IMG/VR virus record: IMGVR_UViG_3300043409_001932
Location: 1-43,816 of that record
Reading direction: 5' to 3' (one strand)
Length of the DNA: 43,816 bases
Source of the DNA: a virus
In this document: positions 1-40,944 of the stretch, one piece after another
Position numbering within the stretch: the first letter of the stretch is position 1
How the letters are laid out: every line of letters starts with the position of its first letter
The notes under the pieces: model-generated
The model's input: only the letters and a program-made list of their open reading frames with translations
What the model was told of the DNA's origin: nothing
Database searches by the model: none
Program-made: the position numbers and the translations under genes

Positions 1-350
1 TCAACACCTAAACCATATTCTTCAGCATAAAATTCTGGTACGTATTTATCTGGAGATATTCTAAACCCAAAGTTGTAATATCTACTTACATTTAAATTTT
101 TAACGTAATCATGGGGATTGAATTTATATGGTTGACCACCCACATCAAAATTTGCTATACGAAAGTCACAATAAATAACATCCTCCGTAAATGGTTGCAG
201 CCTAATTAATGATTCTAATTGTTGTATAAATGGAAACCCTTTAGGGAAAATAAAAATTATTTTTTCGTTATATGTTTTATATAACCATGAACAAACTGGT
301 AAACATTGTCCAAAATCCCCAGCTTTTCCTGTGTGCGTAACTGCTATCAT
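1..350 (-). CDS. Glycosyltransferase-like protein, N-terminal part (cut by window edge)
   Basis: The minus strand is open from an ATG at 348-350 to the window edge, giving the first 116 residues; the C-terminus lies outside. The start reads MIAVTHTGKAGDFGQCLPVC, a Gly-rich beta1-loop-alpha1 as in GT-B (heptosyltransferase-type) Rossmann folds, followed by an IIFIFPKGFPF strand and a conserved-looking GGQPYKFNP segment. Its start codon overlaps the stop of the downstream glycosyltransferase gene (ATGA, 347-350), so the two are translationally coupled. A sugar-transfer or sugar-processing role is inferred from fold resemblance and this context; no catalytic residue can be assigned from the fragment. 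Confidence 0.6.
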   Translation of the reverse strand, partial: MIAVTHTGKAGDFGQCLPVCSWLYKTYNEKIIFIFPKGFPFIQQLESLIRLQPFTEDVIYCDFRIANFDVGGQPYKFNPHDYVKNLNVSRYYNFGFRISPDKYVPEFYAEEYGLGV

Positions 351-2317
351 TTTATAATTAATTCTCCGTTATTTTTAAGTTTATTATTAATATAATTTTG
401 ATCTATTGTTATAGATTTTTTAAGTAATCCGTTTTCGTGTAATTCTATTTGAAAAACATTTGCATTGTTATCAATCACCTCATAAAAAAATTGAGCTGTT
501 TTAACAGTTAATTCTTTAATATCCGTAATAACACCATCACGTGATACTTTAATACATACATTCCTATCATCGGTTTTATTTGACGTACTGTACCAAATAG
601 CGAATTGGTTATTCTTATCTTTAATAGGTAACACATTAAAATATTCAACCATAGAACAAATATCAATACTACATTTATTCAACATTTCATAAAAACCATC
701 ATCATTTAATATTTTTATTTGAGCTAATGAATTTTTTAATGTATGGTAAAACATATTTTCTAAGCCATTTGATTCAGAACCAACATCAATTTTCCATGTA
801 TTGTAATCATCCTCATTTAAAATTAAATTGAAATTTTCAGTAAAAAAATCAACTCTAGTTGCAAATAAAACAGTTCTTAAAGCATTACCTTCTGATGCCA
901 TAGTATGATTATATACGGCTTTATGATACTTTAAATCGTTAATTAATTTTGGTATAATTGTGGTATCGGTTATCACCATATCAAAATTAAAACATATAAC
1001 ATTATCATACCCTAAACTTTTAGCGTAATTAATACCGTTATAATAATTTGTATAAACAGCAGGCCCATGATAAATGTGATTACCTTCTGTTTTAATATTC
1101 ATAAACATTTTTACTTTATCATTTTCAGACCAAGAGGAACCGTAATAGTCGTGATAAGTTAAAATATTATTTGAATCAAATATAACATGATCAACTTCAC
1201 CTTGTAATATTTTTGGTACTGGTGCGTGTGATGTTAGTATAACATCATAACCTTGTTCTTTTACAGCTTTAATTGAATTTAGAGTGATATCAGTTATACC
1301 GTTATTTGTTGGGTGTGTTGAAATTACTAACACTGTTTTATTTTGTTTACCATAAAGAACATCACCTATTTTTTTAATGTTTTCATTTTGGTTATTGAAA
1401 TCTAAATAATTTATAGTATCATAAGTGTCAAAATAATTTTGATAAACTGGTAAGTTATATATTAATGTTGGTATTTTACAAGATATAGCCTCTCTAATTA
1501 CAAGTGGCATAGTTTCTTTATCTGTTATAGTGCCTTTGGATGTGAATAAAAATAAATCCATAGCCAAATAAAAATCCTCTACGTTTGATTTTTCACCATG
1601 ACATACAACATTAGATGGTTTATTTTCAATCAAAGGTTCCCAATATGGTCTAAAATTATCAGCCATATTACCCAATGAATGAAAAATTATTTTATCAGAT
1701 TCAAATTGTTTTGCATATTCAAAAAATTCTTTTTGATTTTTTCTTGGTGTAAATAAACCAACATGTAATACGTGTTTGTAATTAGGATCTAAACCTAATT
1801 TAATTAAAGCCTCATCTCTATCTGGTCTTTCTTTGTATTCTATAGGGTATTCAACAACCTCGGAAGGTATATTTAACTCTTTTAACATACCAACCTGGTA
1901 ATCAGATACTAAAATAAATTTATCTGGTTGAAATCTTTTTCTTTCACAATTGAATGATGAATCGTGTGAAGTTTCAAATATTTTATATTTTCTATCTGAT
2001 TTATAAATTTCTTTAGCAATAATATCAGACATAAAATATTCTGGCATTTCTTCTAAATGTATAATATCTGGTTTAATCCTATTAATTGAATCAATTAATA
2101 TTTGTTTATCCCCACCCCAAGGTATTGTAATTAAATTTTCCCCAAGTAAATCTTTAATTTTATTTTTCTGGATAACTAATACCCCACCAGTTACATCTTC
2201 ATATTCAATAACATAAATTTCGTAAACATCTTTAAGTAACTCAATTTTTTTTGTTAAATATTGTGGTAAACCTCCAGTTGATAAGTGAGGAGCAATGTAT
2301 ATAATCTTTTTCATCAA
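347..2317 (-). CDS. Two-domain glycosyltransferase (GT4-type GT-B + GT-A-like domain)
   Basis: A 656-residue protein predicted to transfer sugars from nucleotide-sugar donors. Residues 1-325 form a GT-B unit: N-terminal IIYIAPHLSTGGLPQY with the GGxxxY loop of GT4 enzymes, a KHVLHVGLFTPRKNQKEF strand-loop opening the donor domain (about 181-198), and an E-x7-E-type signature ETMPLVIREAI (268-278). Residues about 328-560 look like a second, GT-A-like domain (VLVISTHPTNNG, then VICFNFDMVI near 440-449, a possible metal-binding strand). The last 90 residues are a beta-rich extension of unknown role. Two consecutive ATGs (2317, 2314) begin the gene and no Shine-Dalgarno is visible. It lies just downstream of the giant fibre gene on the same strand, separated by a terminator. 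Target unknown; the Ser/Thr-rich fibre or a host glycan are candidates. Confidence 0.8.
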   Translation of the reverse strand: MMKKIIYIAPHLSTGGLPQYLTKKIELLKDVYEIYVIEYEDVTGGVLVIQKNKIKDLLGENLITIPWGGDKQILIDSINRIKPDIIHLEEMPEYFMSDIIAKEIYKSDRKYKIFETSHDSSFNCERKRFQPDKFILVSDYQVGMLKELNIPSEVVEYPIEYKERPDRDEALIKLGLDPNYKHVLHVGLFTPRKNQKEFFEYAKQFESDKIIFHSLGNMADNFRPYWEPLIENKPSNVVCHGEKSNVEDFYLAMDLFLFTSKGTITDKETMPLVIREAISCKIPTLIYNLPVYQNYFDTYDTINYLDFNNQNENIKKIGDVLYGKQNKTVLVISTHPTNNGITDITLNSIKAVKEQGYDVILTSHAPVPKILQGEVDHVIFDSNNILTYHDYYGSSWSENDKVKMFMNIKTEGNHIYHGPAVYTNYYNGINYAKSLGYDNVICFNFDMVITDTTIIPKLINDLKYHKAVYNHTMASEGNALRTVLFATRVDFFTENFNLILNEDDYNTWKIDVGSESNGLENMFYHTLKNSLAQIKILNDDGFYEMLNKCSIDICSMVEYFNVLPIKDKNNQFAIWYSTSNKTDDRNVCIKVSRDGVITDIKELTVKTAQFFYEVIDNNANVFQIELHENGLLKKSITIDQNYINNKLKNNGELIIK

Positions 2318-2417: not shown

Positions 2418-5400
2418 TTACCTTTGCTTTAACCTTTCAACTTCAATAGTAAGTTCATTAATCGCAGCGATTAATAATGGTACTATTTTTTCATATTGAA
2501 CGGTTAAATAATTTTCACCAGATTTGCTATTTATAACCCCATTTTCATCAACATTTCTATCGAATGGAGCTAATTTAACAGCTTCTGGTAATACCTTTTC
2601 AACATCTTGAGCTATGACACCCACTTGTCTTTCAGGGTAAGTTCTATTCATTAATCCATCAGCCAATTCATTTTGATAATACGTTACACTTCTTAAAGAT
2701 TTAACCTTATCCAATGCATTTGTAATATCATTGAAATCTTTCTTTAATCTTTCATCAGAGTAGAATGCTATAATATTACCATCAGCCCAGAATTCACCAG
2801 TACCAAGACTATTTGTTTGCCATATGGCACCACTAGCATCTTGCTTCATTGAAGAGTCAGCAAAAGTACTACTATTGTTATATGGTATGTAAGGTGTAGT
2901 CGGGTTTGTACCACCGCCACCACCACTTGCACTTGTACCTGATGTACCAGCTGTTCCAGAAACGCCAGATGTTCCAGCAGTTCCAGCATTACCATTTATA
3001 CCACTTGTACCAGAAGTTCCAGCTCTACCAGAAGTTCCAGAACTACCAGAACTACCAGAGGCACCAGCAACACCACTTGTTCCTGATGTTCCAGCTGGTG
3101 ATGTACCTGTAAGACCAACAACTCCATTTGTATCACGAACTAAATAACTAACTGGTGTTACAACAGCACCATTAAATTTAGTTTGTTGAACCCCTTGATC
3201 CCAATAGAAATAACTACCAGTAGCACCACCGTAAGCAGCATTTGATGGGTCACCAAATTTACTATTATTGTTATCCCAAAAAGCTAATGGATATATTTGA
3301 GTTGTAGCAGATAAATTAGCTGTATCAACATTTATAGTTTGGTTTGTAGTTAATGTACCACCACCAGATAAACCAGAAACACCTGTAACACTAACATACG
3401 TACCTGAAGTACCTAAGTTACCAGATATACCAGAAGTACCTGACGTTCCAGCTGTACCATTAGTTCCTGAAGAACCAGATCCAGCACTTAAACCACTACT
3501 AGCAGCAACACCCGAAGTACCTGCGGTACCAGATCTACCACTTGTTCCTTGTGAACCTGATGTATTTGAATTACCTGAAGTACCAGCAGTCCCATTTATT
3601 CCTGATGTACCAGCTGTACCATTAGATCCACTAGTATTACTTATTCCTGAAGTACCTGAGGTACCAGCAACTCCACTTGTTCCTGACGTTCCTCTAGAAC
3701 CACTTGTTCCAGAAGTATCACTCAACCCTGAAGTACCAGCAGTTCCTTTAACACCTGACGTACCATTAGAACCAGAAGTTCCTGATGTATCACTTATTCC
3801 ACTTGTTCCCGCAGTACCTCTAATTCCTGAAGTACCATGAGTACCATTTGAACCAGATGTGTTTGAAATACCTGAAGTACCTGCTGTACCATTTATTCCA
3901 CTTGTTCCAGAAGTACCATTACTACCAGAAGTATTACTTAAACCTGATGTTCCAGCAGTTCCGCTCACACCTGAAGTTCCATTACTACCAGAAGTACTTG
4001 AAATTCCTGAGGTACCAGCAGTTCCTGATACTCCACTTGTACCTTGAGAACCTGATGTACCTGAAGTATTCGCAATACCACTTGTACCAGAAGTACCATT
4101 TATACCTGACGTTCCAGCAGTTCCTGATGAACCTGATGTATCACTTATTCCACTTGTTCCAGCAGTTCCTTTAACACCTGATGTTCCTGATGAACCACTT
4201 GTACCAGATGTATCACTTATTCCTGACGTACCAGCAGTTCCTCTAATACCTGATGTTCCTTGTGAACCAGAAGTTCCTGATGTATTTGAAATACCACTTG
4301 TACCAGCAGTACCTGAGATACCAGAAGTACCATTGCTACCTGATGTGTTTGAAATTCCTGAAGTACCAGCTGTACCATTAATACCCGATGTTCCGTTTGT
4401 TCCATTTGAACCCGAAGTTGAAGATATTCCTGATGTACCTGCGGTTCCTGATACGCCACTCGTACCATTTGAACCTGACGTATTGCTTACACCACTTGTA
4501 CCAGCAGTTCCATTAATACCTGATGTACCTTGAGAACCTGACGTACCAGAAGTGTTACTCAATCCAGAAGTACCAGCAGTTCCTGAGATACCTGATGTTC
4601 CATTAGAACCAGATGTGTTAGAAATACCTGATGTACCAGCAGTTCCACTTACACCTGAAGTGCCATTTGAACCAGAAGTTCCACTTGTATTTGAAATACC
4701 ACTTGTTCCAGCAGTACCATTTATTCCTGAAGTTCCAGAAGAACCGTTACTACCTGACGTATTACTTAAACCACTTGTTCCAGCGGTTCCATTAGTTCCA
4801 CTTACACCTGAAGTGCCATTTGAACCAGAAGTATTAGATATTCCTGAAGTACCTGCGGTTCCTGAGATACCACTTGTACCTTGAGAACCTGATGTACCTG
4901 ATGTATTAGATATTCCAGAAGTACCAGCTGTTCCTGAAACACCACTTGTTCCGTTTGAGCCACTTGTGTTTGAAATACCCGAAGTTCCAGCAGTTCCATT
5001 AATACCAGAAGTTCCTTGAGAACCATTACTACCCGAAGTTCCACTTATTCCTGAAGTACCTGCGGTACCGTTGATGCCAGAAGTTCCTTGAGAACCTGAA
5101 GTTCCACTTGTTGAAGAGTTTCCAGAAGTACCAGCTGTTCCTGAGATACCTGACGTACCTGAAGTTCCAAGAGATCCAGAAGAACCCGAAGTATTACTCA
5201 ATCCAGAAGTACCAGCAGTTCCGTTTATTCCACTTGTACCAGATGTACCATTACTACCTGATGTATCACTTACACCACTTGTTCCAGCAGTTCCGTTTTT
5301 ACCTGAAGTACCAGCTGAACCAGAGGTTCCTGATGTAGCTGAAACTGTTGAAGTTCCAGCAGCAGCTGCTGTTCCAGAAGAACCAGCTGAACCTGATGTT

Positions 5401-8400
5401 CCAGATGTGTTAGATAAACCACTTGTTCCAGCAGTTCCGTTTATTCCTGAAGTACCATTTGTACCGTTACTACCTGAAGTTCCAGAGATACCAGAAGTTC
5501 CAGAAGTTCCGTTAATACCTGATGTACCATTTGTTCCGTTAGAACCAGAAGTACCACTTATACCACTTGTACCACTTGTTGAAGAAACACCAGAAGTTCC
5601 GTGAGTTCCTGATGAACCCGCACTACCTGAAGTTCCACTTGTTGAAGAGTTTCCAGAAGTACCAGCAGTTCCTGAGATACCAGAGGTTCCGTTAGTTCCT
5701 GATGAACCATTTGTATTACTTATTCCACTTGTTCCAGCGGTACCAGAAATACCTGAAGTTCCATTAGAACCAGATGTACCTGATGTATTTGCAACACCAG
5801 AAGTTCCAGCTGTTCCATTAATCCCAGAAGTTCCAGAAGAACCGTTTGATCCGCTTGTTGAAGAATTACCTGACGTACCTGCTGTACCGTTAGTTCCAGA
5901 AACACCTGAAGTACCATTACTACCTGATGTATTACTTAAACCTGAAGTACCTGCGGTACCGTTTATTCCGCTTGTACCCTGAGATCCCGATGTACCAGAA
6001 GTATCACTTATTCCACTTGTTCCAGCAGTTCCAGTTTTACCTGAAGTACCAGCTGAACCAGAGGTTCCTGATGTAGCTGAAACTGTTGAAGTTCCAGCGG
6101 CTGCTGCTGTTCCAGAAGAACCAGCTGAACCAGAAGTTCCACTTGTTGATGAAAGACCTGATGTTCCAGATGTTCCATTTATACCTGAAGTACCTTGTGA
6201 ACCATTTGAACCTGAAGTTGCACTTAAACCTGATGTGCCAGCTGTTCCGTTTATTCCAGAAGTTCCTTGTGAACCAGATGTATTACTCAATCCAGAAGTT
6301 CCAGCTGTACCAGAAACACCAGAGGTTCCGTTAGTTCCAGAAGAACCAGCTGAACCAGAAGTACCAGATGTGTTAGATAAACCACTTGTACCAGCTGTAC
6401 CATTTATCCCTGAAGTTCCATTAGTTCCGTTAGAACCAGAAGTGTTACTCAATCCTGATGTACCAGCTGTACCATTTATTCCTGATGTACCTTGTGAACC
6501 AGATGTACCAGAAGTATTAGATAAACCACTTGTTCCAGCAGTTCCCGAAACACCACTTGTTCCATGAGTACCTGAGCTACCAGCAGAACCAGAAGTTCCA
6601 CTTGTTGATGAATTACCACTTGTTCCAGCAGTTCCAGAGATACCAGAAGTACCAGCTGAACCTGAAGTTCCTGAAGTACCAGATGAACCTGATGTATCAC
6701 TTATACCAGAAGTTCCAGCAATACCAGATCTACCAGAAGTACCATTACTACCAGAAGTTCCTGAAGTAGATGAAACTGTTGATGTTCCAGCCGTTGATGC
6801 TGTCCCTGATGAACCAGCTGAACCTGAAGTTCCACTTGTATTTGAAATACCTGATGTACCAGCAGTTCCTGAGATACCACTTGTTCCTTGAGAACCAGAT
6901 GTACCTGATGTATTAGACACACCCGAAGTACCAGCAGTTCCATTAATCCCTGAAGTTCCTTGAGAACCTGACGTACCAGATGTATCACTTATTCCACTTG
7001 TTCCAGCAGTTCCAGTTTTACCTGAAGTACCAGCTGAACCAGAGGTTCCTGATGTAGCTGAAACTGTTGAAGTTCCAGCGGCTGCTGCTGTTCCAGAAGA
7101 ACCAGCTGAACCAGAAGTACCTGAAGTACTACTCAATCCTGAAGTACCTGCGGTACCACTTATTCCACTTGTTCCTGATGTACCATTAGATCCACTTGTA
7201 TTACTTATACCTGAAGTTCCAGCGGTTCCGTTAACACCACTTGTACCTTGAGAGCCAGAAGTTCCTGATGTATTACTCAATCCAGAAGTTCCAGCAGTTC
7301 CTGAAATACCAGAAGTTCCATTAGAACCAGAAGTTGCACTTAAACCTGAAGTACCTGCGGTACCACTTATACCACTTGTACCATTAGTACCATTAGATCC
7401 ACTTGTATTACTCAATCCTGAAGTTCCAGCGGTTCCGTTAACACCACTTGTACCAGAAGTTCCGTTTGTTCCAGCAGAACCAGATGAACCAGAAGTTCCA
7501 CTTGTTGAAGAATTACCAGAAGTTCCAGCGGTTCCATTTATTCCTGAAGTTCCAGATGTACCATTTGAACCAGAAGTTGCACTTAATCCAGATGTACCAG
7601 CAGTTCCGTTTATACCAGAAGTTCCTGATGATCCGTTAGATCCGCTTGTGTTTGAAATTCCTGACGTACCAGCTGTTCCATTAACACCACTTGTTCCAGC
7701 AGTACCGTTAGACCCTGAAGTGTTTGAAATACCTGATGTACCAGCAGTTCCATTTGTACCACTTATACCACTTGTACCATTAGTACCAGAACTACCAGAA
7801 GAACCAGAAGTTCCACTTGTATTGGAAATACCTGATGTACCAGCAGTTCCATTTATTCCTGATGTTCCGTTGCTACCTGATGTTCCAGAAGTATTACTTA
7901 TACCTGAAGTTCCAGCGGTACCATTTGTTCCAGAAACACCACTTGTTCCGTTAGAACCAGATGTGTTTGAAATACCTGATGTACCTGCTGTACCAGCAAC
8001 TCCACTTGTACCTGAAGTACCACGAGAACCTGATGTACCAGAAGTATCACTCAATCCTGAGGTTCCAGCAGTTCCATTAACACCAGAAGTACCTGATGAA
8101 CCATTAGATCCAGACGTATTTGATAAACCTGATGTACCTGCGGTACCTGAGATACCACTTGTACCATTGGTTCCGTTAGAACCAGATGTGTTACTTACAC
8201 CACTTGTACCAGCGGTACCATTTATACCTGAAGTACCAGCGGTACCAGAAGAACCTGATGTGTTTGAAATTCCAGAAGTTCCAGCTGTACCAGCCGTACC
8301 AGCAACTCCACTTGTACCAGATGTTCCACGACTTCCTGATGTTCCTGATGTGTTAGAGATTCCACTTGTACCAGCAGTACCGTTAATACCACTAGTTCCA

Positions 8401-11400
8401 CTTGATCCGTTTGAACCAGAATTACCTGAGGTTCCGCTTGTTCCTGATGTACCACTTACACCACTTACACCATCAGCACCACTTATACCAGTAGTACCTG
8501 AAGTACCTGATGTACCTGAAGTTGATGAAATTCCAGCAGTTCCAGCAGTTCCAGATCTACCAGCAGTTCCTGAAGTACCAGCTGAACCTGAAGTGCCTGA
8601 TGTTCCTGATGTATTAGAGATTCCACTTGTTCCAGCAGTACCAGAAGATCCAGCGGAGCCAGATGTTCCACTTGTTGAAGATATTCCACTAGTACCTGCG
8701 GTTCCGTTAGAACCAGATGTGTTACTTACACCTGATGTCCCAGCTGTACCAGAGATACCTGAAGTACCTTGAGAACCTGATGTTCCAGAAGTATTTGAAA
8801 TACCAGAAGTTCCAGCAGTACCATTTATACCAGAAGTTCCTTGAGAACCTGATGTTCCTGAAGTATTAGATATTCCACTTGTACCTGCGGTACCTGAGAT
8901 ACCTGAAGTACCAGATGATCCATTACTACCTGACGTATTACTTAAACCAGAAGTACCTGCGGTACCGTTAGTACCACTTATACCAGAAGTTCCATTACTA
9001 CCAGAAGTATTACTCAATCCTGATGTACCTGCGGTACCACTTATTCCTGAAGTACCGTTTGTTCCTGAACTACCAGCAGAACCTGATGTTCCAGAAGTAT
9101 TAGATAAACCACTCGTTCCAGCAGTTCCATTAACACCACTTGTACCTTGAGAGCCTGAAGTTCCTGATGTGTTAGACACACCTGACGTTCCAGCTGTACC
9201 ACTTACACCAGAGGTACCATTAGATCCACTTGTGTTTGAAATTCCTGAAGTACCAGCAGTTCCGTTAACACCACTAGTCCCAGAAGTACCATTAGATCCG
9301 CTTGTATTTGAATTACCGCTTGTTCCAGCAGTCCCATTTATACCAGAAGTTCCAGCAGTTCCTGATGAACCAGCTGAACCAGAGGTTCCACTTGTTGAAG
9401 AATTTCCTGAGGTTCCAGCTGTTCCTGAGATACCTGAAGTACCATTACTACCAGATGTACCAGAAGTGTTAGATAAACCTGAAGTTCCAGCCGTACCAGA
9501 CACACCTGAAGTTCCAGAAGTTCCATTAGATCCAGAAGTGTTAGATATACCTGACGTTCCAGCGGTTCCGTTTGTACCACTTACTCCACTTGTACCGTTA
9601 GTTCCTGAACTACCAGCAGAACCAGAAGTTCCGCTTGTATTGGAATTACCTGAAGTACCTGCGGTACCATTAATACCAGAAGTACCATTGCTACCAGATG
9701 TTCCAGAAGTATTGCTTAATCCAGATGTACCAGCAGTTCCATTTATACCACTTGTTCCTTGAGAACCTGATGTTCCAGCAGTATTAGATATTCCACTTGT
9801 ACCTGCTGTCCCTGAGATACCTGAAGTACCATTGCTACCTGATGTGTTAGATATTCCTGAAGTACCTGCGGTGCCATTTATACCACTTGTACCATTTGTT
9901 CCGTTACTACCAGAAGTATTTGAAATACCACTTGTACCAGAAGTTCCTGATACACCACTTGTTCCGTTTGAACCACTTGTGTTTGAAATTCCAGATGTTC
10001 CAGCAGTACCAGAAATACCAGATGTACCATTAGTACCGTTTGAACCTGATGTATTAGATACACCACTTGTTCCAGCGGTACCAGAAATTCCAGAAGTTCC
10101 ATTACTACCAGAAGTGTTAGAAACCCCTGAAGTACCTGCGGTACCATTTGTGCCACTCACACCTGAAGTTCCGTTAGAACCAGAAGTGTTGCTCAATCCT
10201 GATGTACCAGCAGTACCATTAACACCTGAAGTTCCTTGAGACCCTGATGTACCACTTGTTGAAGAGTTTCCAGAAGTACCAGCTGTTCCTGAGATACCTG
10301 AAGTACCACTTGATCCGTTAGAACCAGAAGTATTAGATATTCCTGATGTACCAGCTGTACCATTTATTCCTGATGTACCACTTGATCCGTTAGACCCTGA
10401 AGTGTTACTCAATCCTGATGTACCAGCAGTACCATTTGTTCCACTTATACCTGAAGTTCCATTTGAACCACTTGTGTTTGAAATTCCAGATGTTCCAGCT
10501 GTTCCTGAAACACCACTTGTTCCTTGAGAACCTGATGTTCCAGCAGTATTTGAAATACCAGAAGTACCAGCTGTTCCTGAAATACCAGATGAACCTGAAC
10601 TACCCGATGTTCCTGAAGTTGATGAATTTCCTGATGTACCTGCGGTGCCATTTATACCTGAAGTTCCAGAAGTACCATTACTACCAGATGTATTACTCAA
10701 TCCTGATGTACCAGCAGTACCATTTGTTCCACTTATACCAGATGTACCAGCAGTTCCAGAAGATCCAGCGGAGCCAGATGTTCCACTTGTTGAAGAAGCA
10801 CCCGATGTTCCAGCAGTACCATTAACACCTGAAGTTCCTTGAGACCCTGATGTTCCCGATGTGTTAGACACTCCACTTGTACCAGCGGTACCAGAAATAC
10901 CACTTGTACCATTTGTTCCGTTAGAACCACTAGTATTACTTAACCCTGAAGTTCCAGCAGTTCCAGAGATACCTGAAGTTCCGTTTGTTCCTGAACTACC
11001 AGCAGAACCTGATGTTCCACTTGTTGATGAATTTCCTGAGGTTCCAGCAGTTCCATTTATTCCTGAAGTTCCTGATGTTCCATTACTACCAGATGTATTA
11101 CTTATTCCACTTGTTCCAGCAGTTCCGTTAGTTCCTGATACACCACTTGTTCCACTTGAACCAGATGTATTTGAATTACCAGAAGTTCCAGCAGTTCCAT
11201 TTATACCAGAGGTTCCTTGAGAACCAGAAGTTCCACTTGTATTTGAGATACCTGAAGTACCCGCTGTACCAGCAACTCCACTTGTGCCAGATGTACCATT
11301 AGATCCAGAAGTATTAGATAACCCTGAGGTTCCAGCTGTTCCACTTATACCAGAAGTACCATTTGTTCCGTTAGAACCACTTGTGTTAGATATTCCTGAT

Positions 11401-14400
11401 GTACCTGCGGTTCCATTAATACCACTTGTTCCTTGAGAACCTGATGTTCCAGAAGTATTAGATATTCCACTTGTACCTGCGGTACCTGAGATACCACTTG
11501 TACCATTACTACCTGAAGTGCCAGCAGAACCAGATGTTCCTGATGTATTAGATATTCCTGAAGTACCTGCGGTTCCTGAGATACCTGATGTACCATTAGA
11601 ACCAGAAGTATTAGATATTCCTGATGTACCAGCGGTTCCTGAGATTCCACTTGTTCCATTAGATCCAGATGTGTTAGATATTCCTGAAGTTCCAGCAGTT
11701 CCATTAGTACCACTTTCACCAGAAGTTCCGTTTGAACCAGATGTGTTAGATATTCCTGAAGTACCTGCGGTACCATTTATTCCTGATGTACCAGATGAAC
11801 CTGAAGTGCCTGATGTGTTACTTAATCCTGAAGTACCTGCGGTACCAGCAACTCCACTTGTGCCAGATGTACCATTAGATCCTGATGTATTTGATAAACC
11901 AGATGTACCAGCCGTTCCAGATTCACCACTTGTTCCGTTTGTACCATTAGTACCAGAAAGACCCGAAGTACCATTACTACCAGATGTATTACTCAATCCA
12001 GATGTACCAGAAGTACCTGTTGTTCCACTTTTGCCACTTGTACCTGACTCACCACTGGTTCCACTTTCACCGCTTGTTCCTGAAGTACCTGTTGTACCAG
12101 ACTCACCTGAAGTTCCTGATTCTCCACTTGTTCCATTAGTACCACTTGTTCCACTTTCTCCACTTGTGCCAGATTCACCTGATGTACCATTTGATCCAGA
12201 AGTACCACTCTCTCCACTTGTTCCTGATGTTCCAGTTGTTCCTGATTCACCAGAAGTACCATTAGTTCCAGTTGTACCAGATTCTCCTGAAGTTCCTTTT
12301 GTTCCAGAAGTTCCAGATATACCAGAAATTCCTGATATACCACTTACACCATTTAAACCATTTGTTCCAGATGTTCCGCTTTCACCGCTTGTTCCAGATT
12401 CACCGCTTGTACCAGATTCACCAGAAGTTCCAGATTCACCAGAAGTACCATTTGTTCCAGTTGTACCAGATTCACCAGAAGTTCCACTTGTACCTGACTC
12501 TCCGCTTGTTCCGTTTGTACCACTTTCACCTGACGTTCCTGATGTACCTGTAGTCCCAGATTCTCCACTCGTTCCACTTTCACCATATGTTCCACTTGTT
12601 CCTGTTGTTCCAGACTCACCAGATGTACCTGAAGTACCCAATTCACCTGACGTACCATTACTTCCAGTTGTACCAGACTCACCTGAGGTTCCAGCAACAC
12701 CACTTGTACCTGAAGTTCCATTTGTACCGCTTTTACCTGACGTACCAGACTCACCACTTGTTCCATAAGTACCGTTTGTCCCTGATTCACCTGATGTACC
12801 GTTTGTTCCTGAAGTTCCACTTTCACCACTTGTTCCTGATTCTCCAGATGTACCACTTTCACCACTAGTACCATTAGTTCCAGAAGTACCACTTTCACCT
12901 GAGGTTCCGTTAGAACCCGATGTACCTGATTCTCCTGAAGTCCCTGATTCTCCGCTTGTTCCTGAAGTACCTGATTCACCTGAAGTTCCACTTTCACCAC
13001 TTGTTCCAGCAGTTCCACTTGTACCAGATTCACCTGAAGTTCCAGATTCACCTGATGTACCATTTGATCCAGAAGTACCACTCTCTCCACTTGTTCCGTT
13101 TGTACCAGACTCACCTGATGTACCATTTGTTCCTGACGTACTTGATTCACCTGAAGTTCCACTTGTACCTGATTCACCAGATGTACCATTTGTTCCTGAC
13201 GTACTTGATTCACCTGAAGTACCACTTGAACCGCTTTCTCCACTTGAACCTGATGTTCCTGATGAACCACTTGAGCCAGAAGTTCCAGATATTCCAGAAA
13301 TTCCTGACACACCACTAACCCCATTTAAACCATTTGTTCCTGAAGTTCCTGATTCTCCACTTGTTCCAGATTCACCTGAAGTTCCAGATTCACCTGAAGT
13401 TCCAGATTCCCCTGTAGTACCAGATTCTCCGCTTGTACCTGAGGTTCCACTTGTACCTGACTCTCCGCTTGTTCCGTTTGTTCCAGACTCACCTGATGTC
13501 CCAGCAGTTCCTGAAGTTCCAGATTCTCCTGAGGTTCCTGATTCACCACTTGTACCCGATTCTCCTGAAGTACCTGTTGTTCCAGACTCACCACTCGTTC
13601 CACTTTCTCCTGAAGTTCCACTTTCACCTGAAGTTCCTGATTCTCCTGATGTGCCGTTTGTGCCAGAAGTTCCACTTTCACCTGACGTTCCAGTTGTACC
13701 TGATTCTCCTGATGTACCATTTGTACCACTTGTACCAGATTCTCCTGAAGTTCCAGATTCACCTGATGTACCAGATTCTCCGCTTGTTCCTGACTCTCCA
13801 GAAGTTCCACTTTCACCTGAAGTTCCGTTTGTACCTGATTCTCCTGAAGTACCATTTGTACCTGATTCTCCTGAGGTTCCAGACTCACCTGATGTTCCAT
13901 TAGTTCCAGTTGTCCCTGATTCACCACTTGTTCCGTTTGTACCCGATGTACCAGACTCACCTGATGTACCATTAGATCCACTTGTACCTGAAGTTCCTTT
14001 TGTTCCAGAAGTTCCAGATATACCAGAAATTCCTGACACACCACTAACCCCATTTAAACCATTTGTACCAGATGTTCCACTCTCACCACTTGTTCCAGAT
14101 TCACCTGATGTTCCACTCTCACCGCTTGTTCCAGATTCACCACTTGTTCCAGATTCACCTGAAGTTCCAGATTCACCTGAAGTTCCACTTTCACCTGATG
14201 TTCCATTTGTTCCTGATTCACCACTTGTACCGTTTGTACCTGATTCACCTGAGGTTCCTGATTCACCACTTGTACCTGATTCTCCTGATGTACCAGATTC
14301 TCCGCTTGTTCCTGACTCTCCAGCAGTTCCACTTTCACCTGATGTTCCAGACTCACCTGATGTACCATAAGTTCCTGAAGTTCCTGATTCTCCACTTGTT

Positions 14401-16301
14401 CCTGATGTTCCAGCAGTTCCACTTTCACCTGATGTTCCATTTGTTCCTGATTCACCACTTGTACCCGATGTACCTGTTGTTCCGCTTTCACCTGAAGTTC
14501 CGTTACTACCTGATTCTCCAGAAGTTCCTGATTCCCCTGAGGTACCTGATTCTCCTGAAGTTCCACTTGTACCTGACTCTCCGCTTGTTCCGTTTGTTCC
14601 AGACTCACCTGATGTCCCAGCAGTTCCTGAAGTTCCAGATTCTCCTGATGTACCAGACTCACCTGACGTACCAGATTCGCCATTTGTACCTGACTCACCA
14701 GATGTACCTGAAGTACCAGTTGTACCAGATTCCCCTGAAGTACCATTAGTACCTGAAGTGCTTGATTCACCACTTGTACCTGATGTTCCAGTTGTACTTG
14801 ATTCACCTGATGTTCCATTAGTTCCAGTTGTTCCAGATTCACCAGAAGTACCATTTGTACCTGAAGTGCCTGATATACCAGAAATACCTGATACACCACT
14901 TACACCATTTAAACCATTTGTACCAGAGGTACCAGATTCACCTGACGTACCACTCTCACCACTTGTACCAGATTCTCCTGAAGTTCCTGATTCACCAGAA
15001 GTTCCTGATTCACCACTTGTACCACTTTCACCAGAAGTTCCTGATTCACCACTTGTACCACTTTCACCTGAAGTTCCTGATTCACCACTTGTACCACTTT
15101 CACCTGAAGTTCCTGATTCACCACTTGTACCACTTTCACCTGAAGTTCCTGATTCACCACTTGTACCAGATTCTCCTGAAGTACCAGTAGTTCCTGATTC
15201 ACCACTTGTACCAGATTCTCCTGAAGTACCAGTAGTTCCTGATTCACCACTTGTACCAGATTCTCCTGAAGTACCAGTAGTTCCTGATTCACCACTTGTA
15301 CCACTTTCACCTGAAGTTCCTGATTCACCTGAAGTACCATTCGTACCAGTTGTTCCTGACTCACCAGATGTACCACTTGTTCCAGATTCACCTGATGTTC
15401 CGCTTTCCCCAGATGTACCACTTTCACCACTTGTTCCAGATTCACCTGAAGATCCGCTTTCACCACTTGTTCCAGCAGTTCCACTCTCACCAGAAGTTCC
15501 ACTCTCACCACTTGTTCCAGATTCTCCTGATGTACCTGATTCACCAGAAGTTCCTGATTCTCCAGAAGTTCCCGAAGTACCAGCAGTTCCTGATTCACCA
15601 GATGTTCCAGTTGTTCCAGATTCACCAGACGTTCCATTTGTTCCATAAGAACCAGATGTACCTGACATACCAGATGTCCCAGAAATTGCACCTAAAGCAA
15701 CTAAATTAAAATAAGAAGGGTTGTTATAAGGATCTTCCGATCCAGTTGTTGTTGTAGTTACAATATATGTGCTACCATCAAAATAAAATAATTCACCAAC
15801 GTTATAAATAATTGGCGCATAATCACCAGTCCAAGTATCAATAAAAGCACCATTTGCTCCAGAACTACCCGAAGTACCTGATTCCCCTGAAGTTCCGCTT
15901 TCTCCTGAAGTTCCAGAAGTACCTGATTCGCCTGAAGTTCCGCTTTCTCCTGATGTTCCTGAAGTACCCGATTCCCCTGAAGTACCAAAAGTCCCAGATT
16001 CACCACTTGTACCTGAAGTACCAGCAACAAAATCCGAATATGTAAATTGACCCGAAGTCGGATCATACGTTACTAAATACGTGGGTGTTACATTAAGGGT
16101 TAATTCTTGGTTTTCCCATTGGGATGTTGTACTGTTATAAACTAAAATATTACCACCAGTTACACCAGTGGTAATAATTACGTCTGATAAATCATTAAGA
16201 CCTAAATTTAGGATAGCTTGATTTAGATTATCAAAATTTGCATCTAACTCACCAAAGGTTAGAGGTCTCTGAAGAACACTTCTTAAATATATTACTGCCA
16301 T
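2418..16301 (-). CDS. Giant collagen-like tail fibre with C-terminal Peptidase_S74 chaperone
   Basis: A 4627-residue fibre protein. Residues 1-93 are a globular head with [15 protein letters not shown], a motif common at the start of phage tail-fibre proteins and likely the virion attachment end. Residues 94 to about 4300 are almost pure Gly-X-Y triplets ([12 protein letters not shown]), broken near DNA 15690-15850 by a carbohydrate-binding-like island. After [11 protein letters not shown] comes a short beta-rich domain, a second small triplet stretch, then [35 protein letters not shown] and [21 protein letters not shown], the hallmarks of the S74 intramolecular chaperone. In that family the domain trimerises the fibre and cleaves itself before the Ser of SDERLK (here about Ser4515). 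No stop or frame break occurs over 13.9 kb. A CTATTTAT box sits 24 nt before the ATG and a terminator follows. It probably acts in host recognition. Confidence 0.93.
15001..15144 (-). repeat. 36-bp tandem repeat, four copies
   Basis: Four head-to-tail 36-bp units beginning gttcctgattcacc on the plus strand. Copies 2-4 are identical and copy 1 differs by one base (15033). Each encodes 12 residues of GES/GTS. Exactness against the synonym-rich background points to recent slippage or unequal recombination. Confidence 0.9.
15145..15279 (-). repeat. 45-bp tandem repeat, three identical copies
   Basis: Three identical 45-bp units abut the 36-bp array. Each is a 36-bp-like block plus gtaccagta and encodes 15 residues containing [14 protein letters not shown]. 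The adjacency of two exact arrays marks 15.0-15.3 kb as the youngest expansion in the gene. Confidence 0.9.
15690..15850 (-). other. Non-repeat island in the fibre: carbohydrate-binding-like module
   Basis: About 53 residues interrupt the triplets near the fibre's N-terminal end: [20 protein letters not shown], then [17 protein letters not shown] and a [10 protein letters not shown] strand. The W-x-G-x-Y ... Y-x-x-G-x-x-x-Y-x-G-x-x-Y-x-x-x ... P-x-x-x-x-W/F pattern resembles CBM5/12-like modules that often sit between collagen-like segments of phage fibres. The resemblance was judged by eye. Confidence 0.5.
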
Positions 16302-16351: not shown

Positions 16352-18808
16352 CTACAGCATCTTAACTATTATTTTCTCTTTTTTAATATCATAGTTAATA
16401 TTAAACGATCCTTCTTTAGGCATACCGTTCTTTAATAGCTCTTCCGACATTGGATCTTCTATATATTTTTGGATAGTCCTCTGTAACTCCCTGGCACCGT
16501 AATTCTTATCATATCCAAGCTCAGATAATTTTTCTTTTGCTGATTTTGTTATCTTAAAACTATAGTTAGATTCTTTTAATCTTTCAGCTAACTCATTCAT
16601 TTGCAAATCTATAATCTTAATTATTTCTTCTTTACCTAAATGATTAAAATAAATTAAATCATCCAAACGATTTAAAAATTCTGGTTTAAAAGTTTTCTTC
16701 AAGCTTTTTTCAATTATAGCTTGTGATGATTTTATTGTATCTTCATCAGTTGAGAAACCAATCTTAACACCGAAATCTTGAACATCTTTTAAACCAACAT
16801 TTGATGTCATAATAATAATAGTATTTTTAAAATTAATTTTTCTACCACTACCATCTGTTAAATGTCCCTCATCTAATAGTTGTAATAAAATATTAAATAA
16901 ATCTGGATGAGCTTTTTCAATTTCATCAAATAAAATGAGTGAGTATGGTTTATTTTTAACCTTTTCGGTTAATTGTCCACCTTCATTATAACCAACATAT
17001 CCTGGAGGAGCACCAATTAATTTAGAAATATTAAATTTTTCGGAATACTCTGACATATCAATACGGATCATAGCATCTTCACTACCAAATACTTTTTCAG
17101 CTAAAACTTTAGCTAATTCTGTTTTACCAACCCCAGTAGGCCCTATGAATAAGAATGAACCAATTGGTCTATTTTGTCTACGAATACCAGTTCTATTACG
17201 TTTAATAGCTGCTGAAACTTTACCAATAGCTTCATCTTGACCTATTACGGTATTTGACAATTCTTTATCAATGTCAATTAATTTTTTAATTTCGTTTTGT
17301 GAAATTTTACTAATAGGTATTCCAGTCATCATAGATACAACCTCACAAATCATTTCGTCCGTGACAATCATACGTTTATTATTCAAACCATCTTTCCAAA
17401 TTTTTGTTTCTTTATCAAGTTCACTTGTTGTTTTCTTTTCAAGATCTCTTAAATCAGCAGCCTTTTCATAATTTTGGCTTTTAACAACATCAGTTTTTAA
17501 TTTCTTAATTTCTTTAACTTTGTCCTCCAACTCCTTAATTTTTTGTGGTGGTTTAATACTAACCTGAGTTCTAGAACCAGCCTCATCTAAGATATCAATT
17601 GCTTTATCTGGAAATTCACGATTTGTTATATATCTGTCAGATAGTCTAATAATCTCATCAATAGCATCATCCGTATATTCCACTTTATGAAAATCCTGAT
17701 ATTTTTCACGAATATTCATAAGGATATCCTTTGTTTCAGCTAATGTTGGTGGGTTAACCATAACTTTTTGGAAACGTCTATCCAACGCACCATCTTTTTC
17801 AATATGCTCACGATATTCATCTAAAGTTGTAGCACCAATACACTGTACCTCACCACGAGCTAAAGCTGGTTTAAATACATTTGCAGCATCTAATGAACCA
17901 GAAGAATTACCAGCACCAACTAAGGTATGTAATTCATCTACAAATAAAATAATATTCGGGTTATCCCTAACTTCTTCCAATAAACCTTTAATTCTTTCTT
18001 CAAATTGACCACGGTATTTAGTACCAGCTACCATTGAAGTTAAATCTAAACTCATTAATCTTTTGCCTTGAAGTGGTCTAGGACATTCATTTTTAGCTAT
18101 TTTAATAGCCAAACCTTCAGCAATTGCTGTTTTACCAACACCAGGATCACCAATCAATACTGGATTATTTTTTTTCCTACGTGTTAAAATTTGTGCAACA
18201 CGCTCAACCTCAGCCTCTCTACCAATAATTGGATCTAATTTATCATCATTAGCTAAAGCAGTTAAATCACGACTGTAATTATCTAAAATAGGTGTTTTTG
18301 ATTTAACTTTACTTTGTTGGTTTTCGTTTGATGTATTTCTTTTATTACTATCTTCATCTGAAAAATATGTAGATGATACATTTAATTGTTTTAATTTTCT
18401 CTGTATAAATGTTTTAGATATACTGTAATCCTTTATTATTTTTATAATAGCCATATCTAAATCAAATGAAACCGTGAAGAATAGCTCAGCACTAATAAAT
18501 TCTTCTTTATTTTTTGCTTTTGAACATTGCTTAAGAACCTCTTGTAAAGGAACTTCAAATGTTAATATACTTTCATTATTTATCTCACTATCGTTATCGG
18601 ATTGTTTTTTTATAAAATTATCAACATCAGTTAGAAGTAAATCATAATCTGAAATTTTATCTTTTAGAATTTCACGAATAACATTATCTGACACCATGAT
18701 ACCATATAAAACGTGTTCTAACCTTAATTTACTATCTCTATATTGAAGAGCTGTTTCACGACCGACTGTAAAGGCTTGTCTTAGTTCATTTGACATTTTT
18801 TCTTTCAT
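16352..18808 (-). CDS. clpC: ClpC-type AAA+ unfoldase
   Basis: An 818-residue Hsp100/Clp ATPase, full length for ClpC. It has an N-terminal Clp_N-like domain ([13 protein letters not shown] onward, 1-150), AAA-1 with Walker A GDPGVGKT (220-227), Walker B ILFVDE and pore loop KYRGQF, and a short ClpC-type middle segment (about 421-470). AAA-2 has Walker A GPTGVGKT (556-563), Walker [13 protein letters not shown] and pore loop [19 protein letters not shown] (676-685) supplies the IGF tripeptide that docks Clp ATPases onto ClpP, so it may feed host ClpP. The text around it resembles Bacteroidetes ClpC, suggesting acquisition from a host. The ATG at 18808 is chosen because an in-frame TTG at 18856 is the -33 box of the gene's own promoter. 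It is the only gene between the fibre and that promoter. Confidence 0.93.
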
Positions 18809-18825
18809 ATTATATCTATTTTTGA

Positions 18826-18856
18826 CAAAGGTAACTAATGGATTGACATTTTCCAA
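18826..18856 (-). promoter_or_regulatory. Bacteroidetes-type promoter for clpC
   Basis: On the minus strand TTG (18856-18854), a 20-nt spacer, then TACCTTTG (18833-18826), matching the TTG / TAnnTTTG consensus. The clpC ATG begins 17 nt further on. It overlaps the divergent promoter at 18843-18873. Confidence 0.8.
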
Positions 18857-19425: not shown

Positions 19426-20103
19426 ATGTCAAGTACAAAAATAGACCAACTTCCACTATTTCCTGGAACCGACACCTCAGGAGTATATCTTGTTGTAAAC
19501 GATAAAACCGAAACCACAACATATAAAATTAAAAAAGAAACGTTACTTGGTACATCAGGTAATTCTGGTAATTCAGGTACAAGTGGTGTAAATGGTATCT
19601 CAGGAACGTCTGGTATATCAGGTACAAGTGGTGTAAATGGTATCTCAGGAACGTCTGGTATATCAGGTACAAGTGGTGTAAATGGTTTATCTGGTACATC
19701 TGGTACAAGTGGTGTAAATGGTATCTCAGGAACGTCTGGTATGTCAGGTACAAGTGGTTTAAATGGTTCATCTGGGACATCTGGCGCTGATGGGGTTTCA
19801 TCTGACCAGTATCATTGGAGAAATGGGGATGAAATTATGATCTCATCAGGTCAAATTATAACAATTGGGTCGGATTACATGTTAATTGATAGTGCGTTAC
19901 TTACTGAAGCTGCAACTAACGATGGCTTTGGGTCATCAGTCACGATAGCAGGTAAAACATATAGTAGAGACGGTAAACTATCTGTTTTTGGTGACTTTGT
20001 TGTTTATGATTCAGACATCCTAAACAATGGTCAGATAAGAGTTGAGGGTGGTCTCATATTAGAAGGGGATACTAACATAATAGGAAATGGAATAATAATT
20101 TAA
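19426..20103 (+). CDS. Short collagen-like fibre/appendage protein
   Basis: 225 residues in three parts. Residues 1-42 ([20 protein letters not shown] and [16 protein letters not shown]) form a small beta-rich head. Residues 43 to about 125 are Gly-X-Y triplets (GTS, GVN, GIS), the same composition as the giant fibre but tiny. The rest is a beta-rich tip with repeating strands ([17 protein letters not shown], then [18 protein letters not shown] and NIIGNGIII) that looks like the start of a beta-helix. It has no S74 chaperone. It is 22 nt upstream of the beta-helical fibre gene and probably the partner of that virion appendage. Triplets continuous from about 43 suggest a trimer. Confidence 0.8.
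19576..19665 (+). repeat. 45-bp perfect tandem duplication in the triplet region
   Basis: Two identical 45-bp copies starting ggtacaagtggtgtaaatgg, followed by a partial third (19666 on). Each encodes 15 residues, [15 protein letters not shown]. Confidence 0.9.
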
Positions 20104-37290: not shown

Positions 37291-38811
37291 TTATCTATAT
37301 ATGTTACCAACACGCCATAGGTGACCATAATGGTTTGTTCTAGTGTTACCAAAATATTCTGATTGTTCCACTCTGTATTCTGGGTAATTGTATAATAAAA
37401 ATTTATTATCTTTGTTGATTATCCCAACTACCCCAGCTTTATGGGTGAAATACAAATCAACGTCCGTTAGATTTAAAAAAATATTTTTTAGTAACATAGG
37501 CCCTGTTGGGCTTAAACATGAAGATCCATAAAAATTATTTTTAACATTATCAACAATATTTTCAATTGCTTTGAATAATCTTACATTACCTGGTTTACAA
37601 ACCATTAAACCATTGTATACACCATATTCGGATTCTGGTAAATCAAAAACAAAATGTTCATTTTCAGTTAATTCAATTAATCTAAAACCTTTAAATGGTT
37701 TATATTTTATATCCAAATAAATTCCACCGTGAACATACAATACACAATAGCGCCATAAATCAGCTTTAAAAGCTCCAGGTATTAATTTTCTATAAGCCAA
37801 TAAAACATCTAAATTAAAATGTTGTTCTATAAAATTATCACAATCAACATCATCGAATAGGTAATACTCAAATTCTGGATTGTTGGTTATTAACTCATCA
37901 ACGCATTCTCGCATTTTAGGTAATAAATTTTTTGTACCCCAAGTTTGAAATATTTTTAACGGTATTTTACTTTTATATGTTTTACCAGTATAACTAAAAT
38001 GTGGTTGGTGTATAAATGGGTTATAGTCAATATTTTCGTATGTAATTTTTGCTACCCTACGTTCAAAAATTTTTGTGAGCGGTTTTACACCATCACTAAA
38101 AAAACCTGTGACTTTTTTTTTATTTTTAACAATACCATAAAATTTTTCATCATTAATTTTAACACTATCATCAATTTTAACGATATTACAATTGTATGGT
38201 ATTGTAAATATTTCATTACCTGGTGTTGACCCCCATTTTTTTATATAAAATTGTTTATTTAAATCTATTTGGTTTAATGATGGGTTTTTGGCTATTGTTT
38301 GTGAATTATAATATGTTTGTGGGTTAAAAAAAACAGACCTGTTTATCACTAAACTTTCCAACATCATTCGATAATGATAGTCATTATCTTCATAATAAGC
38401 TGGGTAAAAATTCTCATCAAACCTACCAATTTTTTTCCAAGTTGTTAACGGTATTATAAATACGCACCAGGTACCTAAACCAATATAAAAATCACTTGAA
38501 TTTTTATCAATATAATCTTCAATATCTTCAGCACTTTTATCCCAAATTACATCATCATTTAATATGGCAACATGTGTGCAACCATTAGAAAATAACGTAT
38601 CACATATAAGATTCCAAGAACCACTAACACCTAAATTATTTTTTGTTTTTATTATGTGTTGATTTGGTGAATTTATTTCTATGTCTTGATTACCGTTATC
38701 AACAATACACACATCTCTATTAGACCACTTGCTTTTATACACCTCTAAAGCCTGATTAAGTAAATCAGCTCTATTTATTGTTGGTATACCTAACCCTATT
38801 TTTTTATACAT
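37291..38811 (-). CDS. GT2-GT32 fusion glycosyltransferase
   Basis: A 506-residue bifunctional glycosyltransferase. Residues 1-225 are a GT2-like GT-A domain: GLGIPTINRADLL at the N-terminus and HVAILNDDVIW with NDD (85-87) as nucleotide-sugar metal site, plus YPAYYEDNDYHYR. Residues about 280-480 are GT32-like: IPLKIFQTWG, FKADLWRYCVLYVHGGIYLD with the DxD-type loop LDIKYKP (366-372), and a final GHLWRVGN segment. GT32 enzymes include sugar transferases of capsule and O-glycan pathways. It is cytoplasmic, with no membrane segment. Together with the two glycosyltransferases at 1-2317 it suggests sugar modification of virion proteins or host surface. Confidence 0.85.
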   Translation of the reverse strand: MYKKIGLGIPTINRADLLNQALEVYKSKWSNRDVCIVDNGNQDIEINSPNQHIIKTKNNLGVSGSWNLICDTLFSNGCTHVAILNDDVIWDKSAEDIEDYIDKNSSDFYIGLGTWCVFIIPLTTWKKIGRFDENFYPAYYEDNDYHYRMMLESLVINRSVFFNPQTYYNSQTIAKNPSLNQIDLNKQFYIKKWGSTPGNEIFTIPYNCNIVKIDDSVKINDEKFYGIVKNKKKVTGFFSDGVKPLTKIFERRVAKITYENIDYNPFIHQPHFSYTGKTYKSKIPLKIFQTWGTKNLLPKMRECVDELITNNPEFEYYLFDDVDCDNFIEQHFNLDVLLAYRKLIPGAFKADLWRYCVLYVHGGIYLDIKYKPFKGFRLIELTENEHFVFDLPESEYGVYNGLMVCKPGNVRLFKAIENIVDNVKNNFYGSSCLSPTGPMLLKNIFLNLTDVDLYFTHKAGVVGIINKDNKFLLYNYPEYRVEQSEYFGNTRTNHYGHLWRVGNIYR

Positions 38812-40342: not shown

Positions 40343-40942
40343 ATGAAAAAACTATTATTTATTTTATTATTATTAATTAGCATTACAGTTAATGCTCAGT
40401 TAAGAGATTCGGTTTATATCAAAACTGATATTTACGAATGTGTTTACTCTGAGGTGTTAGAACAACCAAAATTTATTAGATATACTGTTCAGTGTCCAAA
40501 TGGTACAGCGCCTAGAGCTGGTATGGATTTCTATATTTCTGACAATTTAAAAACATCTGACGATAAAGACTACGCTCAAAATGTTTATGATAAGGGACAC
40601 ATGGCTCCAGCGGCAGATTTTAATTGCACTAAAGAAATGCTTTATAAGACATTTTCATATGTTAATTGTGCGTTACAACATAAAGATTTAAATCGTGTAA
40701 CCTGGAGGCTACTAGAAGCTAAGGAAAGGGTTTTAGCTGAGAAGTATACGGTGATTGTTGAAATAAGATTGGTGTTTGATAAAAAATGTGTTAAATTACC
40801 GACTGGTGCAACCATACCTAAAGCGTTTTATAAGACTATTTATATTAAAGAAACCAATCAAATTTTAAAGTACTATTTTATAAACCAAAAACCCACATCA
40901 TCAAACCCAGAAAATTACCTTATTAAGTTTTGTACTCAATAA
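40343..40942 (+). CDS. Secreted DNA/RNA non-specific endonuclease (NucA type)
   Basis: 199 residues. A clean signal peptide, MKKLLFILLLLISITVNA, precedes Gln-19. The beta-beta-alpha metal nuclease core follows: NVYDKGHMAPAADF (the DRGH motif as DKGH, catalytic His), then SYVNCALQHKDLNRVTWRLL, where the Asn and downstream Glu match the family's metal-binding N-x-x-x-W-x-x-L-E. The start is the ATG at 40343; an in-frame TTG upstream would put residues ahead of the signal peptide. Export implies action in the periplasm or outside, unusual for phage DNA metabolism. It lies 2 nt upstream of the fusion gene. The NAQ cleavage context resembles flavobacterial signals. Confidence 0.88.
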   Translation: MKKLLFILLLLISITVNAQLRDSVYIKTDIYECVYSEVLEQPKFIRYTVQCPNGTAPRAGMDFYISDNLKTSDDKDYAQNVYDKGHMAPAADFNCTKEMLYKTFSYVNCALQHKDLNRVTWRLLEAKERVLAEKYTVIVEIRLVFDKKCVKLPTGATIPKAFYKTIYIKETNQILKYYFINQKPTSSNPENYLIKFCTQ

Positions 40943-40944
40943 AA

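Follow-up and report, generated by a model that had tools for sequence, protein, structure and literature searches.

The question raised by this locus is what kind of structure could be encoded by a single viral gene whose product, 4,627 aa long, consists almost entirely of collagen-like triplets without proline. The window, i.e., the whole stretch of DNA that was analysed, is a 43,816-bp IMG/VR virus record, in which the open reading frame at positions 2418–16301 of the minus strand is intact and begins with an ATG start codon. A first-pass annotation of this DNA had described a fibre of ∼4627 residues that was ∼90% collagen-like, and this was confirmed, as 4,209 of the 4,627 residues (91%) lie within collagen-like triplet frames; a triplet count likewise confirmed GTS, GES, and GTA as the commonest triplets, and the near-absence of Pro and Lys held as well, with zero Pro and nine Lys in the arrays. 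The Pfam Collagen profile (PF01391) matched the protein in 19 stretches with 1,430.7 bits, against a curated cut-off of 27.2. The gene and its parts, ordered from the N-terminus to the C-terminus, are as follows:

2418–16301, minus strand: giant collagen-like fibre gene, 4,627 aa, defined by the open reading frame and Pfam matches
16023–16301, minus strand: N-terminal domain (MAVIYLR...), residues 1–93, presumed virion-side anchor, kept in relatives
15843–16022, minus strand: short collagen stretch no. 1, residues 94–153, 20 intact triplets
15681–15842, minus strand: small non-collagen insert, residues 154–207, 54 residues
11991–15680, minus strand: zone A, residues 208–1437, 410 triplets, 406 of them with Gly, GTS/GES, no Pro
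3504–11990, minus strand: zone B, residues 1438–4266, 943 triplets in the same register as zone A, 120 Gly replacements
3093–3395, minus strand: distal non-collagen domain, residues 4303–4403, about 51% identical in gene 2 of contig G006
2931–3092, minus strand: final collagen stretch, residues 4404–4457, 18 intact triplets
2421–2930, minus strand: C-terminal region with Peptidase_S74, Pfam match at residues 4515–4576

The Peptidase_S74 (PF13884) match at the C-terminus had an E-value of 1.4e-14 in the whole-protein search and spans the entire model (E 4e-16), and the distal end of the protein also matched tail fibres among the PHROGs (E down to 5e-30). In known S74 fibres, the S74 domain cuts itself off. 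The sequence SDERLKK occurs in the present protein. At the other end, the N-terminal domain matched solely PHROGs of unknown function; it is 71–77% identical in contigs G001 and G017, and about 38% identical in loci L084 and L086. A search for relatives of the insert at residues 154–207 found none. The contigs of the relatives carry genes for a T4-type major capsid protein and a tail sheath.

From residue 208 to residue 4302, the protein keeps a single unbroken register through 1,365 triplets; 1,239 of these have Gly in first position and 126 lack it. The first-pass description of about 1,400 consecutive Gly-X-Y triplets therefore did not hold: the longest intact runs were 172, 127, and 98 triplets, all inside residues 208–1437, and Gly at strictly every third position is nearly realised only in zone A. 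The two zones also differ in charge and composition. Zone A, made mostly of GTS and GES triplets, contains 131 D/E vs. 4 K/R, so that charge pairing, previously suggested as a stabiliser, is unsupported; zone B is nearly uncharged, with 12 acidic and 13 basic residues, has Gly in 823 of its 943 triplets, and carries I/L/V at the X position. Past residue 1437, i.e., along two thirds of the shaft, one Gly is replaced per 7–8 triplets, the replacing residues in zone B being Asn (79), Ser (19), Asp (9), Ala (9), and Thr (4). The spacing between replacements in zone B was exactly 8 triplets in 71 of 119 cases, whereas 20,000 random placements never gave more than 16. Unit lengths of 7, 8, 10, and 11 triplets coexist.

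Comparison of the 8-triplet units of zone B with each other gave a dS of about 1.1 and a dN of about 0.28; all differences at the unit's seven canonical Gly positions were synonymous. Because the Gly codons vary synonymously only, the Gly pattern is maintained by selection; and with units that have diverged from each other in DNA yet remained constant in protein, the array must be old. That short-read assembly collapsed or expanded the repeat is unlikely, since the longest exact direct repeat in the fibre gene is 137 nt and the same layout was seen again in an independent contig, G006 (71,718 bp). G006 contains two adjoining fibre genes. The first encodes 3,852 aa and shares the N-terminal domain, and its 585 intact acidic triplets lead into a Ser/Asn-replaced zone; the second, of 3,594 aa (stop to stop), combines a replaced array with S74 and the distal domain of the present fibre. 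As an independent assembly with both zones, G006 demonstrates that the two-zone layout recurs. The length of the fibre is not unique either; a gene of 5,316 aa in G001 (298,833 bp) combines the N-terminal domain of the present fibre with 1,524 triplets and an unrelated terminal domain, and arrays of 800–1,250 triplets occur in several contigs of uncultured phages. G017 (IMGVR_UViG_3300009419_002279; 17,518 bp) breaks off where the fibre gene starts; one set of genes is found at its two ends in inverted orientation, and it is apparently a palindromic assembly.

Arrays were surveyed more widely with two queries: survey 1 comprised open reading frames found with zone B, and survey 2 used the intact zone A and was less biased. 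In survey 1, 852 of ∼1,870 pooled replacement spacings were exactly 8 triplets, and the replacing residues were Ala (797), Asn (374), Ser (307), Arg (179), Asp (93), and Lys (67), compared with Val (7), Ile (2), and Leu (0); V/I/L occupied about 10% of X positions in this survey, yet were almost never found at the replaced Gly position. The X residue preceding a replaced position was I/L/V in 53.5% of cases, vs. 10.4% overall in the surveyed arrays, and the two residues that follow a replaced position were usually Thr, then Ser. Among the 31 arrays of at least 200 triplets in survey 2, 14 had <1% replacement and 10 had 5% or more; the median spacing was 8 in seven arrays, 4 in four, and 6 in two, so a period of 8 is the commonest but not the sole one, and intact arrays form a second class. 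In 26 of 31 arrays, and in 25 of 30 with the independent query of survey 2, the proximal half was the richer in acidic residues, and the distal half had more replacements in 21 of 24 and 14 of 16 arrays, respectively; the contigs are partly related, and formal p-values therefore overstate this evidence. The replaced-array design is common to many uncultured phages. A search of named-phage proteins with the array as query gave no matches, probably because of low-complexity masking by BLAST, and the array matched collagens in the PDB by composition. One match, to an Erwinia jumbo phage, was rejected as compositional because no collagen-like open reading frame lies at the matched site. In Furfurilactobacillus genomes (L093, L094), encoded stretches about 56% identical to zone B were observed.

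The best explanation of the gene, to which we assign a probability of roughly 55%, is that a large, uncultured tailed phage adsorbs by its product, a trimeric collagen-like fibre nucleated by S74, stiff proximally, and periodically jointed distally. A long S74-ended collagen-like phage fibre, as proposed in the first-pass annotation, is thus still the best reading, but the regular Gly replacement and the two-zone layout had been missed. The N-terminal domain would be attached to the virion, three chains would join at the C-terminal S74 domain, acting as a trimerisation chaperone, and the shaft would zip into a triple helix without proline, at most about 1.2 μm long (1,365 × 3 × 0.286 nm), a length that applies only if the whole shaft is triple-helical. 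Zone A, intact, strongly negative, and near the virion, could serve as a stiff, self-repelling spacer. In zone B, about one Gly per ∼8 triplets (roughly 7 nm) gives way to a small or polar residue, usually with I/L/V just before it, and such in-register replacements would be expected to loosen the helix locally with the chain register unbroken, in which case zone B would be a tether, segmented and either flexible or sticky along its sides, for presenting the distant tip. The avoidance of bulky residues at the replaced position, together with their acceptance at X, fits a position that still faces inward.

Stability is an argument against a triple helix. Gly replacement normally destabilises the helix, and host-guest scales rank Thr at X, and Ser or Asn at Y, among the less favourable triplet residues, so a proline-free shaft with poor triplet residues and Gly replacements may fail to fold by itself. 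AlphaFold2 predicted a 96-residue piece of the array, as a single chain, with a pLDDT of 40, and the C-terminal 325 aa, as a single chain without relatives, with a pLDDT of 33. The lack of a confidently predicted fold, the composition of Gly, Ser, Thr, and Asn without proline, and the dense Gly replacements are all consistent with intrinsic disorder. The array would then be a hydrophilic Gly/Ser/Thr linker or brush, possibly carrying sugars, with no role but to hold the tip away from the virion, and its triplet rhythm would be a relic of repeat expansion. We consider such disorder unlikely, however, as the canonical Gly positions remain unchanged in protein with synonymous sites near saturation, and bulky residues are avoided at the Gly position only; both indicate a structural constraint at every third residue.

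A further alternative, somewhat less probable than disorder, is that zone B adopts another repeat fold, such as a β-solenoid or a polyglycine-II helix bundle, in which each turn or layer would hold one 24-residue unit and the replaced and I/L/V positions would form the turns or core. Each 24-residue unit does have two hydrophobic positions, the AlphaFold2 model of the array places short strands at a 24-residue period, and known phage adhesins, e.g., gp38 of Salmonella phage S16, use polyglycine-II. The model is of low confidence, however, and AlphaFold2 is known for drawing β-solenoids on repeats. Moreover, turns of this kind usually tolerate insertions, whereas the units of four different lengths follow each other with no slip of register in 1,365 triplets; polyglycine-II would consist of short GXX tracts with register-shifting turns, and a single register was found instead. 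The same genes also run on into fully intact Gly-X-Y arrays.

If zone B is instead a loosened collagen helix, its period invites a geometric reading. A triple helix with a twist between the 7/2 and 10/3 forms makes about one turn per 8 triplets, and the replacements could therefore fall on one face; against this, the replacement spacing drifts, and a global phase-locking, suggested by some arrays, is absent from others. That large environmental phages have a separate kind of collagen-like shaft, in which regular Gly replacement (usually at 8-triplet intervals, with several small or polar residues serving equally) is a selected design, setting joints or contact sites on proline-free, charge-zoned fibres of ∼1 μm, is offered as a tentative proposal, slightly more likely to fail than to hold.

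The genes on either side of the fibre bear on its assembly and possible modification:

16352–18856, minus strand: ClpB-like two-AAA ATPase, directly upstream of the fibre gene with a 50-bp gap, order conserved
347–2317, minus strand: glycosyltransferase (Glycos_transf_1), directly downstream of the fibre gene, order conserved in several phages

The adjacency of the ClpB-like ATPase and a fibre gene was found in many contigs, with gaps of 57–103 bp and identities down to about 60%, and the best named matches of the ATPase were to 635–642 kb uncultured phages; this ATPase might help to fold or assemble the fibre. Homologues of the glycosyltransferase follow arrays in several contigs (42–51% identity). 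Such a neighbour was present at 7 of 16 replaced arrays vs. 1 of 34 intact ones (Fisher p = 0.0007, which overstates the independence of related contigs), and was absent from the other 9 of the 16 replaced arrays with enough flanking sequence. In contig G014 (320,934 bp), the ATPase and glycosyltransferase genes stand side by side and no giant fibre gene separates them, so the link of this pair to the fibre is not exclusive. Glycosylation of the shaft by the adjacent glycosyltransferase is possible from the gene order, and the enzyme may add sugars to the Ser/Thr-rich shaft and so stabilise it. It is improbable, though, that the replaced positions themselves are the sugar attachment sites, with NTS as an N-X-S/T sequon for the neighbouring enzyme, since, although 76 replaced triplets in the fibre gene read NTS and the glycosyltransferase gene is commoner beside replaced than intact arrays, G001 has Ala at 157 of 158 replaced positions with the glycosyltransferase still present, other arrays use Arg or Lys, and the Asn-X-S/T sequence is found at many sites outside the replaced positions as well, 169 of them at Y. 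The Ala or Arg of relatives was also the reason to reject NTS as a general code for glycosylation. Separately, the window encodes, at 37291–38811 on the minus strand, a protein of 506 aa in which two glycosyltransferase domains were matched (galactosyltransferase PHROG, Gly_transf_sug).

Several known systems resemble the fibre in part. It shares a C-terminal S74 domain with the S74 intramolecular-chaperone fibres (PF13884), but, unlike in other S74 fibres, the shaft ahead of this domain is collagen-like along almost its whole length. Type IV, non-fibrillar collagen has natural Gly-X-Y interruptions in a long helix, whereas the phage replacements are regular (mode 8 triplets) and in register, and no relationship is claimed. 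The collagen-like side tail fibres EPclA-D of E. coli prophages are also phage fibres with a Gly-X-Y shaft between globular ends, and are trimeric, with a rise of about 2.9 Å per residue measured by electron microscopy for an E. coli phage collagen fibre (PMC3368898). Their collagen domains, the longest reported for E. coli prophages, reach at most 322 aa (PMC3368898), which bears out the earlier impression of an array far longer than usual; they are also rich in Pro and charged residues (GPK, GPQ, GER), whereas the present shaft lacks Pro, is >12 times longer, is charge-zoned, and has periodic Gly replacement. LR756501, a 735-kb uncultured phage and one example of the huge phages with such sequences, has GTS-rich arrays, one of 425 triplets, with about 63% DNA identity over 3.8 kb, but its arrays are uninterrupted, without Gly replacement, and are joined to other end domains; collagen is unmentioned in the paper on huge phages that includes it (PMC7162821). 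The glycosylated bacterial collagens of the BclA type also have a Thr-bearing collagen-like array, as does the present fibre, which is adjoined by a glycosyltransferase gene; however, BclA is a spore-surface protein (PMC8968730), and glycosylation of the fibre is putative. In landfill megaphages, viral CRISPR spacers matched the collagen-repeat and tail-fibre genes of other viruses (PMC12607003).

A literature search, mostly outside subscription journals, found no report of long or periodically Gly-replaced phage collagens. The fibre would work like the known phage collagen fibres but departs from strict Gly at every third position, and its regular in-register Gly replacement is a feature for which no earlier description was found. 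Replacement of a single Gly in the collagens of animals can lead to disease, and a natural shaft replaced at every ∼8th triplet therefore tests what a triple helix truly needs. Across many phages, the arrays vary the replacing residue, the period, and the charge, and so constitute a natural experiment on the stability of proline-free collagen. If rod-like, the fibres would be about the length of a bacterial cell and would alter the reach of large phages at their first contact with the host.

Elsewhere in the window, positions 19426–20103 of the plus strand encode a second, small collagen-like protein of 225 aa with a pure Gly-X-Y stretch, followed by an 825-aa protein, and both have relatives in locus L112. 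A 428-aa protein (40930–42216, plus strand) has a weak acetyltransferase match at its start and, by eye, an ADP-ribosyltransferase-like pattern near its end. Very long antisense open reading frames also lie within arrays, namely at 6593–13999 on the minus strand of L102 (2,468 aa) and at 11518–12768 on the plus strand of the window (416 aa); the triplet codon pattern is the most likely reason for them.
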